A stretch of 40,072 nucleotides of DNA, taken from assembly GCF_000686665.1 (NCBI RefSeq), contig NZ_JMLH01000026.1:1-40072 (forward strand), written 5' to 3'. Of this stretch, positions 6,644 through 29,137 are shown in pieces (position 1 is the stretch's first letter; the number at the start of each line of letters is the position of its first letter). Made by a program: the position numbers and the translations under genes. The stretch comes from Thomasclavelia saccharogumia DSM 17460 (GTDB lineage: Bacteria; Bacillota_I; Bacilli_A; Erysipelotrichales; Coprobacillaceae). The notes beneath the pieces are model-generated. The model searched no databases and was not told where the DNA came from. It saw only the letters and a list, made by a program, of their open reading frames with translations.

Positions 6644-7955
6644 ATGATTGGCTCAACTAAATATACAACGATACTTTCACCATTTCCAATTAAGAAAAAG
6701 AATAAATCATTGAAATTTTTTTCTATTTTATAATTATTGTATTAATAACAGTTGTTATTGCTTTTTTTACAGGAGGAAAAGAACAGAAGGTTAATGAAAA
6801 TAATAAAAAAGAAATTGATGAGTTATTTAATTTATTGAAAGAAGATGATGATAAAGATAATATTTTTAAATATCTAAAAATATCTGAAATCGTCTTGATG
6901 CGAACATCGAAAATAATCATCAATATATTGCTAAAGCAATAGTAGAAGCAAAAATTGGAAATTATATTGAAAATACTGAGGCTGTTATGATCGAAGTGTT
7001 TGATGATACTGATGATTTAAAATTGCGTGTCGAATATTTAAAGGCTTAAAACGATTATTTAGATGAAATATACGAAAATGGGTATATATGGTAATTTACT
7101 AAATATGGCTGATTTGCTTAATAAATTTATTATTTATGCTAGAAAAAATATTTTAATGAGTGTTGATGATAGTATTAGTTCAGATTTGGTTTTAACTTAC
7201 AGCAATATAGTATATAAAGCGGTTGATAAAATGAATTTTGAACAAAATGATTTTCCTGCTTCAAAAGATCTTGATAAATTTGAAGAGTATTATGATGGTG
7301 AATTAAATGTTTGGAAATAAAAATATCCAAAAGATAGTTTGCTTAATGACATCAGTTTATTAGTAAACAATATGAATAAACAGGTTGATCTTGCTTATGC
7401 AACAAATAATAATAAATTAGTAACTAATTGTTTAGATGAGTTGAAATATTATGATGTAATAAAATATCAATAAGAATATTTGCATTGGAAAAAATTACTT
7501 ACAACAGTTAAAGAAAATCTTGATAATGATTTGATTTCTCCCGATATGATGGAAAAAAACAATGCATATAAACAAATGGTATATACTGAAGGAGAATATA
7601 TTATCAGTATAGATATTTTATCAGGTGAATATGTAGTTGTAAAAAATGATGATATCCAAAAAGGCAGTGTTTTTCTTGGACGTCAAGAATATGTTTCTAG
7701 TAATACTATTATTAATAGTAGGGATGATGATTTTATAGGTAAAAAATAGTTTTAAATGGGACGACAATGTACCATATTGATAATTCAGAACAAATTAAAT
7801 CAAAAATCACAAATACTTTTAAGGTTAAAAAACATATTGAAGCTGGTGAATATGAAGTTGGATCAGACTCTAAAACAATTAGCATTAAAAACGGTCAATA
7901 TATAGTTTGAAATTATAATAGTCTTCAAATAAGTAAAAAGCAGGTGAAAAAATGA
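6644..7955 (+). pseudogene. Decayed gene for a membrane-anchored protein with GEY repeats
   Basis: Coding-like sequence continues for 1.3 kb but is split by frameshifts and stops. It opens at ATG 6644 (AAGGACGTGAT ribosome site), reads 29 residues to a TAA, then shifts to a frame giving a membrane segment (VLITVVIAFFTGG) and a charged helical region. It shifts again near 6897 (DANIENNHQYIAKAIVEAK). From 7063 to about 7745 one frame is open apart from two TAA stops (7318-7320 and 7471-7473). It then shifts once more and crosses a TGA at 7908 to end at 7953-7955. The later part has repeated elements such as EGEYIIS, SGEYVVV and AGEYEVG, suggesting small beta modules on the cell surface. The final stop overlaps the ATG of the next pseudogene (ATGA), so the pair was once coupled. 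Original function unknown. Confidence 0.75.
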
Positions 7956-8475
7956 TTGAAAAGAACATTGTTGCTAAAATTATGAAGATGATTCTGATTT
8001 TAATAAAACGGAATTTAAACAGTGGGGTAATCAGGTATTAGAAAAACTGCAGATGTTTGGTCAAAAAAAAGACTTATAAACTTCATGAAAAACAGTTAAA
8101 TACAATGAAAAAAACGAAGTTGTAAATGTTGTTAAAGAAATGGAAATTATTGAAGCAAAAATCATTGATTTTGAATGATTGAGTGATTGTGAAGCAATAA
8201 CAGTTCAAATGTTTGTAAATTTAATTGATTATTACCAGAAAGAAGGTAATAGCATTGTTTTATCAGGCAAGATCGATCAAAAAGTAAGTGCAAATTATCG
8301 AATGAAGATCATCCGAGACAAATGTGTTTTGACAGAATGGTTAATAAATCATAATCCTGTTTGTCCTTTTTGTGGGGCGCTAATCAAAAATATTTTACAG
8401 ACAAGATGTGAATATTGTGATGGAATTTTAAAAACGATGGATAATTGTTATAAAGTTTATTCATTACAGATATAA
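7952..8475 (+). pseudogene. Decayed Tim44-like domain protein with C-terminal zinc ribbon
   Basis: Starting from ATG 7952 behind AGGTGAAAAA, the reading frame must shift at least three times and cross a TGA (8176-8178) to stay coding. Pieced together, it shows NYEDDSDFNKTEFKQWGNQV, then KLHEKQLNTMKK, then NEVVNVVKEMEIIEAKIIDF, then the longest open piece from 8179 to 8475. That last piece contains VNLIDYYQKEGNSIVLSGKI and a CPFCGA-x8-CEYC zinc ribbon. This is the pattern I recall for Firmicute Tim44-like domain proteins, which are usually membrane-linked and of unclear role. I consider the family assignment likely, not certain. The gene is non-functional as read. Confidence 0.65.
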
Positions 8476-23856: not shown

Positions 23857-24213
23857 TTATTTGATTATTTCTGCGTCAGTCATAGTATATGTATCCAAAG
23901 AATTTTCTTTAACTTGGATACATATATAAGTAATCGGTGAATTTTCTCCAGCAAAAAATTGACGTTTAGCTGCTGGAGAAATTTTAATCCAATCGCCCGC
24001 TGTTAATGCTATCTCTTCATCGTCAATAATGGCTTTGCCGTTTCCTGAAATAATACCATAGATTTCTTCATTGTATTTATGGCAATGGACAAATGGTACG
24101 CATTCACCAGCCGGTAAAGTGTTAATACTAATTTCTGCTCCAGTCAAAGATAATGTTTCATGCAATTCTGTTCTTGCTTCATTTGTAATGTGTGTGTGTT
24201 TAAAATTTGACAT
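23857..24213 (-). CDS. Cupin-domain protein
   Basis: The 118 residues form one small beta barrel of the cupin superfamily. Cupin motif 1 is visible as GECVPFVHCHKYNEEIYGII, with the His-x-His...Glu metal ligands (HCHKYNEE). Motif 2 is weaker (ALTAGDWIKISPAAKRQFFA) and lacks the second conserved His, being Arg/Gln there. It may be a metal-dependent isomerase, oxygenase or small-ligand sensor; its substrate is unknown. It is divergent from an intact HxlR regulator with a palindrome between the genes, so expression is probably controlled by that regulator. TAGGAGGA precedes the ATG. Confidence 0.85.
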   Translation of the reverse strand: MSNFKHTHITNEARTELHETLSLTGAEISINTLPAGECVPFVHCHKYNEEIYGIISGNGKAIIDDEEIALTAGDWIKISPAAKRQFFAGENSPITYICIQVKENSLDTYTMTDAEIIK

Positions 24214-24233
24214 ATTTTTATCCTCCTAATAAT

Positions 24234-24260
24234 TTGTAAAACATTTAATTGTTTTTACAA
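24234..24260. promoter_or_regulatory. Operator-like palindrome between cupin and HxlR
   Basis: TTGTAAAA (24234-24241) and TTTTACAA (24253-24260) are exact complements separated by 11 bp. It lies just upstream of the cupin ribosome site on the minus strand. Likely HxlR operator. Confidence 0.5.
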
Positions 24261-24315
24261 CTGAAATTATACATGTTTGCAGTGATGTTTGGTAGTACGC
24301 ACTTTTTTGTAACTG

Positions 24316-24344
24316 TGTATTATTTATAGAATGTGTAGTATAAT
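24316..24344 (+). promoter_or_regulatory. Promoter of the intact HxlR gene
   Basis: TGTATT, 17 bp, TATAAT (24339-24344). The start point near 24351 excludes an upstream ATG at 24331 and supports the start at 24370. Confidence 0.5.
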
Positions 24345-24369
24345 AAAAAAACAGGAAGGTATAAGACAT

Positions 24370-24690
24370 ATGAAGAAAAAAGAAGATTTGCCAGAATGTC
24401 CTATTGCAACGACAATATCATTAATTGGAAGCAAATGGAAATTGCTTATTATAAGAAATTTAATGAAACGTTCTTGGCGGTTCAACGAACTTCAAAAGTC
24501 ATTAGATGGTATTTCGCAAAAGGTACTTACAGAAAGTTTAAGACAATTAACAGAAGATGGTCTTGTATATAGAAAAGACTATAAAACAAATCCACCTAAA
24601 GTTGAGTATGGAATGACAGAATTAGGCAAGAAATTGGTGCATGTTTTGAAATCCATGGAGGAATTTGGCAATTTTTATAAATCATTATAA
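24370..24690 (+). CDS. HxlR-family transcriptional regulator
   Basis: This 106-residue winged helix-turn-helix protein has the full HxlR pattern. CPIATTISLIGSKWKLLIIR holds a conserved Cys (Cys9) that is the usual redox or electrophile sensor. Then come FNELQKSLDGISQKVLTESL with the recognition helix, and PPKVEYGMTELGKKL forming the wing. AGGAAGG lies 10 nt before the ATG at 24370. The longer frame from 24331 is rejected because it would begin within the predicted promoter. It probably controls itself and the divergent cupin gene. Confidence 0.9.
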   Translation: MKKKEDLPECPIATTISLIGSKWKLLIIRNLMKRSWRFNELQKSLDGISQKVLTESLRQLTEDGLVYRKDYKTNPPKVEYGMTELGKKLVHVLKSMEEFGNFYKSL

Positions 24691-24882: not shown

Positions 24883-24919
24883 TGTAACTATTGACATTAC
24901 AATAAAGTGATTTTATAAT
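24883..24919 (+). promoter_or_regulatory. Rrf2 promoter with embedded TGTAA-N9-TTACA operator
   Basis: TTGACA (24891-24896), 17 bp, TATAAT (24914-24919) is a perfect consensus promoter. Its -35 lies inside TGTAA-N9-TTACA (24883-24901). The same 19-bp sequence recurs before the SnoaL operon at 25475, so this is the probable autoregulatory Rrf2 site. Confidence 0.75.
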
Positions 24920-24944
24920 TATAATGAGAAAGCGAGGATTAATT

Positions 24945-25391
24945 ATGCAAATTTCAAGTCGTTTTACAATTGCAGTTCATATATTTGCTTGTATTGATAC
25001 TTTTAAAAATGATTTTAAAATAACAAGTGATTTTTTAGCGTCAAGTGTGAATGTTAACCCTGTTATCATTCGTAAAATACTATCGCAGTTAAAATCAGCT
25101 GATCTAGTAACAGTTCAGCGCGGTAGTGGTGGAGCAACGATCACAAAAGAACTTGATGAAATTAGTTTTCTTGACATCTACCATGCTGTAGATTGTATTG
25201 AAAAAGGAGAATTGTTCCACTTCCATGAAAATCCAAATAGTAATTGCCCTGTTGGAAGAAATATTCATAATGTTCTGGATAGTAAACTAGAACAAGTACA
25301 AAGTGCTCTGGAAAATGAACTAAAACAGATTACATTAGCAGACGTAATGAAAGATACCCAGTACTATATTGCAAAAGAGAATAAAGAATAA
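24945..25391 (+). CDS. Rrf2-family transcriptional regulator (YwnA-like)
   Basis: The 148-residue winged helix protein opens with MQISSRFTIAVHIFACIDTF and has the DNA-contacting helix region LASSVNVNPVIIRKILSQLK and the wing VTVQRGSGGATITKELDEIS, all standard for Rrf2. The three-cysteine Fe-S cluster loop of IscR/NsrR is not present. Only Cys in AVDCIEKGE and NSNCPVGRN are near it, so cluster binding is doubtful and a thiol switch is possible, as in YwnA/CymR-like members. The ATG at 24945 follows GCGAGGATTAATT. It is monocistronic, with a consensus promoter and a large terminator. The operator repeats indicate that it controls itself and the next operon. Confidence 0.9.
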   Translation: MQISSRFTIAVHIFACIDTFKNDFKITSDFLASSVNVNPVIIRKILSQLKSADLVTVQRGSGGATITKELDEISFLDIYHAVDCIEKGELFHFHENPNSNCPVGRNIHNVLDSKLEQVQSALENELKQITLADVMKDTQYYIAKENKE

Positions 25392-25396
25392 TTTAT

Positions 25397-25460
25397 AACA
25401 CTCTATATGAAACAGATTTCTTGTAAGAGATTTGCTTAATACATATAGAGTGTTTTTTAT
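25397..25460 (+). terminator. Terminator after the Rrf2 gene
   Basis: AACACTCTATATG (25397-25409) pairs with CATATAGAGTGTT (25442-25454) over 13 bp with a structured loop, followed by a T-run. It separates the regulator from the operon it controls. Confidence 0.8.
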
Positions 25461-25474
25461 GCAAAAAAATTAGT

Positions 25475-25537
25475 TGTAACTATTGACATTACATCAAATT
25501 AGAGTTATGCTTTAGTTGTAATAAAGAAAGTTACAAC
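25475..25537 (+). promoter_or_regulatory. SirTM-operon promoter with two Rrf2-type operators
   Basis: TTGACA (25483-25488), 17 bp and TATGCT (25506-25511) form the promoter. TGTAA-N9-TTACA occurs at 25475-25493 over the -35, identical to the Rrf2 promoter copy, and again at 25517-25535 within GTTGTAA-N9-TTACAAC, just past the -10 near the start point. Two operators straddling a promoter is a typical repressor layout. Confidence 0.75.
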
Positions 25538-25603: not shown

Positions 25604-26377
25604 ATGACACAGATTGAAAAAGCATTAGAACTTATTAACACATTTGCAACAGGAGACACAAAAAAGGCTGAATCACTTTTAGCTGAGGGATATATTCAGC
25701 ATAATCTTGCCTATGGTACAGGTCGTGATGCCTTTGTAGGAAGTGTTGCTTATCTAGCATCTGCCCCAATAAAAACAACAGTAAAAAATATTCGCGCATT
25801 TGAAGATGGTGACAAAGTATTTCTTCATAATGTTTACAACTTTGCTGGTGCTGGTGAACAAGTTGCGTTTGACATTTTTCGTTTTGACAACGAGGGGAAA
25901 ATTGCAGAACATTGGGATAATCTTGCCACAAAAGCAAAACCTAATCCATCTGGACGTACACAGATTGACAATGTATCAGAAGTTATTGATTTAGATAAAA
26001 CAGAAGAAAATCGCCAGATTGTCAAGAATTTCTTGTTTGATGTGATGCAGGGAAACAATGCACAAAAAACACCAGAATATTTTGAGGGTGATATTTATAT
26101 TCAGCATAACACAAGTATTGCTGACGGTTTATCAGGACTTGGTGCAGCATTAGAAGCATTGGCTAAAGAAAATATTCAAATGATTTATACAACAGTTCAT
26201 CAAGTGTTAGCACAAGGAAATTATGTGTTAGCTGTCAGCGAAGGAACATTTGGCGGTGTGCCAACAAGCTACTATGATTTATGGCGAGTAGAAAACGGCA
26301 AGATTGCGGAACATTGGGACGTTATGGAAACCATTGCGGACAAATCAATTTGGCAGAATACAAATGGCAAATTTTAA
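25604..26377 (+). CDS. Tandem SnoaL/NTF2-like protein
   Basis: The 257 residues consist of two copies of an NTF2-fold SnoaL-like domain, about residues 3-120 and 130-250. Each copy has a LxxYIQHN strand (GYIQHNLAYG, IYIQHNTSIA) and ends with IAEHWDN / IAEHWDV. SnoaL-like domains bind small hydrophobic ligands and in some cases act as cyclases or isomerases, but this stress-associated branch has no proven reaction. The ATG at 25604 has AAAGGAGGAAACAAA before it. The open frame from 25553 is rejected. It is the first gene of the Rrf2-controlled operon. The stem-loop after it (26385-26412) lacks a T-tract and probably tunes mRNA levels. Confidence 0.82.
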   Translation: MTQIEKALELINTFATGDTKKAESLLAEGYIQHNLAYGTGRDAFVGSVAYLASAPIKTTVKNIRAFEDGDKVFLHNVYNFAGAGEQVAFDIFRFDNEGKIAEHWDNLATKAKPNPSGRTQIDNVSEVIDLDKTEENRQIVKNFLFDVMQGNNAQKTPEYFEGDIYIQHNTSIADGLSGLGAALEALAKENIQMIYTTVHQVLAQGNYVLAVSEGTFGGVPTSYYDLWRVENGKIAEHWDVMETIADKSIWQNTNGKF

Positions 26378-26432: not shown

Positions 26433-27056
26433 ATGGACACACGCAGTTATTTAGAGTATCTGACAAATCAAATACATACAGTTATCATGGCGACAATAGA
26501 CAATTTGGGAAATCCCTTTACTTGTGCGATTGATATTATGGATTTTGACGAACAAGGTTTATATTTTCTGACTGCAAAAGGAAAAAAATTATATGAGCGA
26601 TTAAAACAGAATAACACAATATCCATAACAGGCTTACAAGGCGATAACACTCTTTCTAGTAGAACAATTACGATATATGGAAAAGTAAAAGAAATTGGTT
26701 TGCTTCGTTTATCAACACTTTTTGAAAAAAATCCATATATGTATAAAATATATCCGACAAAAGAAGGTCGCAAAGCTTTAACAGTTTTTCAAATATATCA
26801 AGGAAACGGTGAATTTTTTGATTTAAGTGTACATCCAATTTTCAGAGAAAGATTTTCTTTTGGAAATTGCGTATTGGAAAGAGGAGGTATGTTTTGCATC
26901 AGTGATAACTGTATCAATTGTGATAAGTGCATTTCTGTCTGTCCTCAAAAATGTATCGTCTATGAAAATAACCAGACGACTATTTTACAGGAACATTGTC
27001 TGCATTGTGGAAACTGCTACAACATTTGTCCTGTAAAAGCTGTTGAAAAGGAGTGA
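26433..27056 (+). CDS. Pyridoxamine 5'-phosphate oxidase-like flavoprotein fused to a 2[4Fe-4S] ferredoxin
   Basis: The 207-residue protein has an FMN-binding split barrel of the PNPOx-like type in residues 1-145 (VIMATIDNLGNPFTCAIDIM, FLTAKGKKLYERLKQNN, SRTITIYGKVKEIG). A ferredoxin domain follows in 150-200 with two CxxCxxCxxxCP sets: Cys160/163/166/170 and Cys189/192/195/199. The arrangement implies electron transfer between iron-sulphur clusters and flavin, perhaps reducing a small molecule or an oxidised protein. It is cytosolic. The ATG follows GGAGGATAAAA. Its stop is 7 bp before the macrodomain start. In this operon it takes the place where other SirTM operons have a flavin oxidoreductase. 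Confidence 0.88.
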   Translation: MDTRSYLEYLTNQIHTVIMATIDNLGNPFTCAIDIMDFDEQGLYFLTAKGKKLYERLKQNNTISITGLQGDNTLSSRTITIYGKVKEIGLLRLSTLFEKNPYMYKIYPTKEGRKALTVFQIYQGNGEFFDLSVHPIFRERFSFGNCVLERGGMFCISDNCINCDKCISVCPQKCIVYENNQTTILQEHCLHCGNCYNICPVKAVEKE

Positions 27057-27063
27057 TAAAGAT

Positions 27064-27837
27064 ATGACACAGGAAGAAAGATTAGATTATTTGATACATT
27101 ATTTGTTAAACGAAAATGAGCAGTATCAAGGATTTAACATTTTGAGCAATGAAACAGATAAGAAAAGGCTGCTGCGTTCGCTAATGAATGTTCGTCCACC
27201 AAAAAAAATTCCCCAGAATTTTTTAAATATCCAAGATCTATATTTACAAGAAGAACTAAAAAAACAAAAAATAATTTCTATAGAAGAATTAGTTTCAGTG
27301 CAAAAAGGACTATATTTATGGCAGGGTGATATCACAAAACTGAAAGCAGATGCCATTGTAAACGCTGGAAATAGCGCATTATTAGGCTGTTTTATTCCTT
27401 GCCATGGATGTATTGATAATGCGATACATTCTTATGCAGGTGTTCAGCTGCGTTTGGAATGTCAGCATATCATGGAAAAACAAGGAATGCCAGAACCGAC
27501 AGGAAAGGCGAAAATCACAAAAGGCTATAATCTTCCTGCAAAATATGTATTGCATACAGTCGGACCGATCATACGAGGAAAATTAACGGAAAAAGATTGT
27601 GAATTATTGGCATCTTGTTATCGCTCTTGTTTGGAATTAGCTGATGCGTATCGATTAAAGTCGATTGCATTTTGCTGCATATCAACAGGAGAATTTCACT
27701 TTCCTAATGATATGGCAGGGTATATTGCAGTCAATACAGTAAAAGATTATTTAAAACAAACGAATTCAAAAATCGAGGTGATATTCAATGTTTTCAAAGA
27801 AGAAGATTATCAGATCTATAAGCGATTATTGGGATAA
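27064..27837 (+). CDS. Zinc-dependent macrodomain protein-ADP-ribose hydrolase
   Basis: The 257-residue protein has a leading helical extension and a macrodomain in about residues 85-250. ADP-ribose-binding motifs are GDITKLKADAIVNAGNSALL and the late CCISTGEFHFPNDMAG phosphate loop. The PCHGCIDNAIH segment (Cys113, His114, Cys116) matches the zinc-binding loop of the SirTM-linked Zn-Macro subclass, which removes mono-ADP-ribose from protein targets. It is cytosolic. ATG 27064 follows AAAGGAG, with the spacing a little long. The gene overlaps the SirTM gene by 50 bp, so the writer and eraser of the modification are made together. Confidence 0.92.
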   Translation: MTQEERLDYLIHYLLNENEQYQGFNILSNETDKKRLLRSLMNVRPPKKIPQNFLNIQDLYLQEELKKQKIISIEELVSVQKGLYLWQGDITKLKADAIVNAGNSALLGCFIPCHGCIDNAIHSYAGVQLRLECQHIMEKQGMPEPTGKAKITKGYNLPAKYVLHTVGPIIRGKLTEKDCELLASCYRSCLELADAYRLKSIAFCCISTGEFHFPNDMAGYIAVNTVKDYLKQTNSKIEVIFNVFKEEDYQIYKRLLG

Positions 27838-28663
27838 CATCAAAAATCTTAAAAAAGTAATAAATAATGCCGATGCAATTGTTATAGGCGCTGGAGCAGG
27901 ACTTTCTACTTCAGCCGGATTAGAATATGGTGGAAAAAGATTTTTTGATAATTTTTCAGATTTTGTGGATAAATATGGTTTACAGGATATGTATTCAGCG
28001 GGTTTTTATCCGTTTGAAACATTAGAGGAATATTGGGCATATTGGAGTCGCCACATTATGCTAAATCGCTATCAGACAGATATTGGTAAACCTTATATAG
28101 ATTTATTGTCCTTAGTAAAAGATAAAGATTATTTTATTGTGACAACGAATGTCGATCATTGTTTTCAAAGAACAGGATTTGATAAACAGCGCCTGTTTTA
28201 TACCCAAGGGGATTATGGGCTTTGGCAGTGCTCTAAAGCCTGTCATCAAGAAACTTATGATAACGAAAAACAAGTCAAGGAAATGGCTGTAAAGCAAAAA
28301 AATATGAATGTACCAGCTGATTTAATCCCCTATTGTCCTCATTGTGGAGCACCTATGACAATGAATTTACGTATTGATGACAAATTTGTTCAAGATGAGG
28401 GATGGTATTTGGCTTCAAATAGATATCATGATTTTTTAAAACGACATGAAGATCTTCATATTTTATTTTTAGAATTAGGTGTTGGAAATAATACGCCAGT
28501 AATTATAAAATATCCTTTTTGGAAGATGACAGCCAAAAATAAACATGCTGTATATGGATGTATCAATTATCAGGATGCTTCTTGCCCGATTCAAATTGAA
28601 AAACAGTCTATTTGTATTCAAGAAGATATTGGAAAGGTCATTCATGATTTGTTATCAGTATGA
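27788..28663 (+). CDS. Class M sirtuin, SirTM protein ADP-ribosyltransferase
   Basis: The 291-residue Sir2-fold enzyme is of the macrodomain-linked class M. The NAD-binding GAGAGLSTSAG is at residues 34-44, with TTNVDHCF at 119-126 (Asn121). At 140 a Gln stands in place of the catalytic His of deacetylase sirtuins, in FYTQGDYG. The Asn/Gln spacing of 19 agrees with the Asn118/Gln137 pair I recall from Streptococcus pyogenes SirTM. Zinc Cys4 is Cys148, Cys152, Cys183 and Cys186. The family mono-ADP-ribosylates a lipoylated carrier GcvH-L, but neither GcvH-L nor the lipoate ligase is in this operon, so the target here is open. ATG follows GAGGTGATATTC. Last gene of the Rrf2 operon. Confidence 0.92.
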   Translation: MFSKKKIIRSISDYWDNIKNLKKVINNADAIVIGAGAGLSTSAGLEYGGKRFFDNFSDFVDKYGLQDMYSAGFYPFETLEEYWAYWSRHIMLNRYQTDIGKPYIDLLSLVKDKDYFIVTTNVDHCFQRTGFDKQRLFYTQGDYGLWQCSKACHQETYDNEKQVKEMAVKQKNMNVPADLIPYCPHCGAPMTMNLRIDDKFVQDEGWYLASNRYHDFLKRHEDLHILFLELGVGNNTPVIIKYPFWKMTAKNKHAVYGCINYQDASCPIQIEKQSICIQEDIGKVIHDLLSV

Positions 28664-28864: not shown

Positions 28865-29137
28865 AAAGAAACCGATGAAGTGGAGATAAAAATAGATCGT
28901 GCACTTACAGAGAGCTTGGATGGTGGAAACAAGCAGAACGCAGCCTATTAAATGGACCACGGAGGGCAAAGTGAAAAGCATTAGCTTAGTATTCTTTGAC
29001 GTAAGACTTACGTAAGTAGTCATAGATGTGATAGCATCTACTAAGGGCACGAGTGTATCGTGAAACAAGGTGGCACCGCGGAATATTATATTATCCGTCC
29101 TTGACAGAATTATTTTCTGTCGGGACGGTTTTTTATT
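28865..29137 (+). ncRNA. Tryptophan T-box riboswitch
   Basis: The leader has the T-box architecture: a long stem I, a specifier region with UGG (28953-28955) followed by A, and the T-box core AAGGTGGCACCGCGG (from 29068). A terminator follows, with stem CCGTCC...GGACGG (29095-29128) and a T-run. UGG is the tryptophan codon. The T-box UGGC pairs with an NCCA end having discriminator G, which fits bacterial tRNA-Trp. Uncharged tRNA-Trp would stabilise the antiterminator and turn on the operon. Confidence 0.92.

Follow-up and report, generated by a model that had tools for sequence, protein, structure and literature searches.

Genes and promoters of the rrf2-SirTM locus

The window, by which we mean the whole 40,072-nucleotide stretch of Thomasclavelia saccharogumia DSM 17460 DNA that was analysed, encodes an Rrf2-family regulator followed on the same strand by an operon that includes a class M sirtuin (SirTM). 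The features of this region, with operators named as predicted, are as follows.

24883 to 24901, no strand: operator of the rrf2 promoter, TGTAACTATTGACATTACA, single copy, over the -35
24891 to 24919, plus strand: rrf2 promoter, -35 TTGACA (24891-24896), 17 bp, -10 TATAAT (24914-24919), 12/12 consensus
24945 to 25391, plus strand: Rrf2-family regulator gene, SifR/YwnA-like, 148 aa, single CPVG cysteine C101, Pfam Rrf2 E 4.5e-33
25397 to 25454, plus strand: intrinsic terminator, hairpin and T run, -22.6 kcal/mol, between rrf2 and the operon
25475 to 25493, no strand: upstream operator of the SirTM operon promoter, TGTAACTATTGACATTACA, over the -35
25483 to 25511, plus strand: SirTM operon promoter, -35 TTGACA (25483-25488), 17 bp, -10 TATGCT (25506-25511), 10/12 consensus
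25517 to 25535, no strand: downstream operator of the SirTM operon promoter, TGTAATAAAGAAAGTTACA, over the likely start point
25604 to 26377, plus strand: tandem SnoaL-like (NTF2-fold) protein, operon gene 1, SnoaL_2 8.1e-20, SnoaL 8.9e-13
26433 to 27056, plus strand: PNPOx-like domain fused to a two-cluster 4Fe-4S ferredoxin, PNPOx_N 3e-7, Fer4 2.5e-9
27043 to 27837, plus strand: Zn-macrodomain protein-ADP-ribose hydrolase, NF003163 370.6 bits (cut-off 272), PDB 8RSI and 5KIV
27788 to 28663, plus strand: SirTM, class M sirtuin (protein ADP-ribosyltransferase), PDB 5A3A E 3.7e-78

The promoter overlapped by the first operator lies 44 bp ahead of the start of the Rrf2 protein (MQISS). The terminator hairpin was omitted by a strict terminator scanner because its loop is above the scanner's limit; its position between rrf2 and the operon promoter makes of the two a pair of separate transcription units. 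The Zn-macrodomain protein matches PDB 8RSI at 1.7e-83 and its gene overlaps that of SirTM at 27788-27837, as expected of SirTM/Zn-macro pairs. From the operon promoter to the trp T-box the ORFs are those of SnoaL2, PNPOx-ferredoxin, macrodomain and SirTM only, and neither ORFs nor profile matches in that interval reveal a GcvH-L or LplA2 gene.

Several neighbours of the operon are also of note. The T-box leader (28866-29105, Rfam RF00230, 94.1 bits) opens a trp operon 3' of the SirTM operon, and directly 5' of rrf2 a minus-strand cupin gene diverges from an HxlR gene (23857-24690). Cupins 62-64% identical to the one in the window are the first genes under twin operators, of the kind described below, in L167, L176 and L177. 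PNPOx-ferredoxin fusions of the type encoded at 26433-27056 are frequent neighbours of Zn-macro/SirTM genes, and in L134, L156 and L183 such genes are themselves under twin operators; the PNPOx-ferredoxin protein is a possible substrate or partner.

Operator sites in the window, the home genome and relatives

A sequence-only reading of this DNA had pointed to three copies of TGTAA-N9-TTACA between 24883 and 25535, each of which is an exact match. As that reading also held, the copies at 24883 and 25475 are the same over 19 bp (both read TGTAACTATTGACATTACA) and have the -35 hexamers of the rrf2 and operon promoters, TTGACA at 24891 and at 25483, embedded in them, and the third copy lies near the start point, beginning 6 bases past the operon's -10 and therefore covering the likely start point. 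The clustering is beyond chance, as had been claimed: with about 0.0023 sites expected in 653 bp under a first-order Markov model of the window, or 0.0025 from the genome-wide rate of the reversed pattern, the probability of three or more is about 2e-9, and there is no further exact match in the whole 40 kb window. What had not been remarked is that the operon's two operators are 42 bp apart from start to start, a spacing that, to judge from the comparisons below, is a conserved feature of the pair.

By pattern matching, the 3.14 Mb home genome contains 17 exact sites and 12 matches to the reversed pattern, which means that the motif by itself has no diagnostic value. Five sites stand out: those of the window and two on contig C4, at 6642 and 6684, which are 42 bp apart, hold a -35 in the same register and precede a ywnB-like gene (Pfam NAD_binding_10). 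When up to 3 mismatches to TGTAACTATTGACATTACA are allowed, the home genome adds only five matches to the three sites already known, each with 3 mismatches and no better than background. The stretch 3' of the C4 ywnB-like gene, at 7415-8445 of locus L016, retains the truncated start of a macrodomain gene and 56 residues of a SirTM C-terminus, at 77% identity and with a stop; by its sequence, a second SirTM operon has decayed here. The relative G007 (L118) has ywnB-like, macrodomain and SirTM genes intact behind the same twin promoter.

Conservation in relatives had been named beforehand as a test of the operator reading, and in many genera the site does recur, both 5' of Rrf2 orthologues and 5' of SirTM operons. 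We fetched and mapped 59 regions of relatives. The stricter pattern TGTAANNATTGANATTACA has matches in 21 of 60 relatives (the reversed control has two), and in the host's GTDB family SirTM is found in 30 and a window-like Rrf2 in 31 of 43 genomes. An exact site lies near the Rrf2 genes of 23 distinct relatives among 38 examined, and TTGA, which this search did not require, is embedded in 20 of these 23 own-promoter sites; none of 22 such promoters (the window included) has a second operator above background, the best candidates having 3 to 5 mismatches. Twin promoters were collected by a search that did require TTGA inside the first site, so that the -35 register in this set is there by construction. 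In 23 of the 31 distinct members the two sites start exactly 42 bp apart; other spacings are 36, 41, 43, 48 and 49, as well as 26, 47 and 50 with one mismatch allowed. Their first genes encode macrodomain, ywnB-like, SnoaL2, cupin and PNPOx-like proteins and an apparent membrane transporter. In 395 genomes of the host class the twin pattern has 11 matches in 8 genomes, versus 0 for the reversed control. As far as comparative sequence analysis can tell, a layout of one site at the regulator and two at the target is common to dozens of related gut bacteria.

A search for SirTM operons by protein homology, which makes no use of the site, leads in the same direction. In the host family 29 such operons had sufficient sequence 5' of them; 22 of these carry an exact site no more than 3.5 kb upstream, accompanied in 21 of the 22 by a second at 24-51 bp. 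Where a family operon has the site and no adjacent Rrf2 gene, the genome has an Rrf2 elsewhere in 10 of 11 cases. Of 77 named SirTM loci, mostly from Clostridia, six have the site and five of the six also have Rrf2 (p = 1.6e-5), most SirTM operons of the named Clostridia being without either. At the genome level, 19 genomes have both the pattern and Rrf2, 3 have Rrf2 only, 1 has the pattern only and 14 have neither (Fisher p = 1.5e-6, a value that ignores the kinship of the genomes); the family genomes G017, G026 and G027 have Rrf2 without the stricter pattern TGTAANNATTGANATTACA, and G034 has sites without a close Rrf2. From this co-occurrence among operons and among genomes, we conclude that sites and regulator travel together.

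At many SirTM operons a divergent HxlR gene takes the place of Rrf2, e.g., L194, L207 and L246 and, within the family, L130, L133, L135, L136 and L138. No exact site occurs at the five family SirTM operons that have HxlR in this position, nor at any of the 36 among the 77 named loci that do. HxlR appears to be the alternative regulator of SirTM operons. The sequence AAGT-N4-ACTT, found in 22 of 47 HxlR upstream regions, could be its operator, the reversed control being uninformative for inverted repeats. Another arrangement is seen in L148 (G008:C284, 2792-6709), where four tandem divergent SirTM-like genes (33-38% identity) stand beside a divergent Rrf2-like gene (31%).

The regulator, its predicted action and rival readings

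The window protein has the features of the winged-helix Rrf2 fold, with a Pfam Rrf2 match of 4.5e-33 and an RGSGG wing tip. The nearest solved structures are PDB 1YLF, a B. cereus-type Rrf2, and B. subtilis YwnA (1XD7), and the CP-G cysteine matches as well. Among 15 aligned relatives C101-P-V-G is invariant in all 15, while C16 and C83 vary. The protein thus has one conserved cysteine and lacks an Fe-S ligand set, and TGTAA-N9-TTACA stands at the target promoters, as in the SifR/YwnA monothiol class. An Fe-S cluster regulator of the IscR or NsrR type was rejected because a single cysteine is conserved and because scores against the IscR, RirA and SUF models fall well under the cut-offs. The best NCBIfam match is the HypR equivalog NF041852, at 64.5 bits far under the cut-off of 180, and a HypR orthologue was rejected on that score. 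Assignment to the SifR/YwnA-type monothiol Rrf2 repressors is well supported by these sequence criteria.

We regard it as highly probable that an Rrf2 repressor of this type acts at the window sites with negative autoregulation. The operator and the autoregulatory circuit proposed in the sequence-only reading draw support from the SifR/HypR motif, from conservation and from co-occurrence, from which we infer binding, repression and autoregulation by the window protein. A dimer, as expected by homology to SifR, would bind each TGTAA-N9-TTACA. One dimer over the -35 would lower transcription of rrf2 itself, a mild autoregulation; the hypR-merA operon is likewise autoregulated by HypR. Two dimers would flank the operon's -10, over the -35 and the start point and with centres about four helical turns apart, and would shut off the SnoaL2/PNPOx-ferredoxin/Zn-macrodomain/SirTM operon more tightly, the second one blocking the start region. 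Strict helical phasing was rejected as a rule: spacings other than 42 bp occur, so the two dimers may not need to be in phase. Modification of C101 by a quinone or other electrophile, or by another thiol-reactive oxidant, is predicted to take Rrf2 off the DNA, which would derepress both rrf2 and the SirTM operon. The ywnB-like NAD(P)-binding protein gene, with the same twin operator, would be the second genomic target.

The alternatives differ in which part of this scheme they replace. That the sites are chance AT-rich palindromes has a negligible probability: the bare motif is weakly enriched genome-wide (17 versus 12), but conservation at orthologous promoters, the cluster probability of about 2e-9 and the 11 twin matches against none in the control rule this out. 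It is very unlikely that the sites belong to another factor, i.e., to the HxlR protein (24370-24690) or to a second, cysteine-poor Rrf2 encoded beside the ywnB promoter (L016, 6108-6551). The genes of both adjoin twin-operator or SirTM promoters, and elsewhere it is usually an HxlR gene that lies divergent to a SirTM operon. However, the second Rrf2 was recognised in two mapped loci only (L016 and L118) and has no such site upstream of its own gene (best 2 mismatches), and the window-type Rrf2 gene is the one that tracks with the sites, by the Fisher test that ignores kinship. HxlR was rejected as the binder, the site being present in 0 of 41 HxlR-divergent SirTM operons. Somewhat less improbable, yet still unlikely, is the view that regulation is by the -35 site alone, the second operator being a leftover of promoter duplication that plays no active part. 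The twin spacing does vary somewhat and one promoter module may be the ancestor of many twin promoters; against this, in several GTDB families and as far as Clostridia both arms and the spacing are kept where the intervening bases and the genes that follow are not.

The rival that deserves most weight, although we hold it to be the lesser possibility, leaves the repressor in place and changes its signal to hypochlorite, another oxidant or a metabolite. HypR, whose core operator is the same, responds to hypochlorite by way of a C33-C99 disulfide (PMC9218516); the best NCBIfam match of the window protein is to HypR, though under the cut-off; and the S. aureus SirTM operons respond to oxidative stress (PMC4518038). 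The invariance of C101 alone, with C16 and C83 variable, fits the monothiol SifR class and not the dithiol HypR class. The chemistry proposed for C101 is borrowed from SifR, and on that analogy the regulator probably senses quinone-like or thiol-reactive stress, derepression of the SirTM operon by electrophiles or quinones in the SifR manner being the most likely course. That quinones are the natural signal we hold with somewhat less confidence than the repressor assignment itself.

Comparison with known systems

PMC11490716 calls the physiological role and the targets of SirTM/Zn-macro ADP-ribosylation elusive wherever the extended operon is not involved. The present analysis would tie SirTM operons to a sensor class of known operator and chemistry, and thereby name a concrete inducer, and with the twin-operator signature further members of the regulon can be sought in any genome. 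A broader proposal, to which we give a rather small chance of being right, is that SirTM/Zn-macro of gut Firmicutes may be a dedicated quinone/electrophile response switched by either of two redox repressors that can replace one another, the twin-operator Rrf2 and the divergent HxlR, with the co-transcribed PNPOx-ferredoxin or SnoaL2, and not GcvH-L, as substrate.

The operator and the regulator class are already published, whereas no mention of SirTM as a target or of the one-site/two-site architecture turned up in the open-licence literature searched. No Rrf2 regulator is mentioned in PMC4518038 or PMC11490716 and no literature link between Rrf2 and a macrodomain or sirtuin/SirTM came to light among the open-licence papers searched, a scope within which an earlier report could have been missed. 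In S. pneumoniae D39, SifR binds TGTAA-N9-TTACA upstream of catE, ywnB, yhdA and fre, as measured by fluorescence anisotropy, and is released from DNA on quinone modification of its C102 (PMC9218516). The system analysed here resembles it in the operator, in a predicted ywnB-like target and, as with YwnA, in a single conserved cysteine ahead of the dimer helix (HxxPNPxC in SifR, HENPNSNC in the window protein). It differs in that a SirTM operon is not among the reported SifR targets and in that the window regulator gene adjoins the operon and carries the operator in its own promoter; the text of PMC9218516 mentions neither sirtuins nor autoregulation nor two operators.

PMC9218516 gives TGTAA-x9-TTACA as the core operator of S. 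aureus HypR. The claim that the three copies define an Rrf2 operator is supported by comparison, and the motif is not new, having been published for both SifR and HypR. HypR has the same core operator and is a redox repressor, as the window protein is predicted to be; it differs in being a dithiol sensor with hypR-merA as its known operon, and the window protein falls far below the cut-off of the HypR model. With the SirTM/Zn-macro operons of PMC4518038 and PMC11490716 the window operon shares the overlap of the Zn-macro and SirTM genes, and it differs from them in having SnoaL2 and PNPOx-ferredoxin in place of GcvH-L and LplA.
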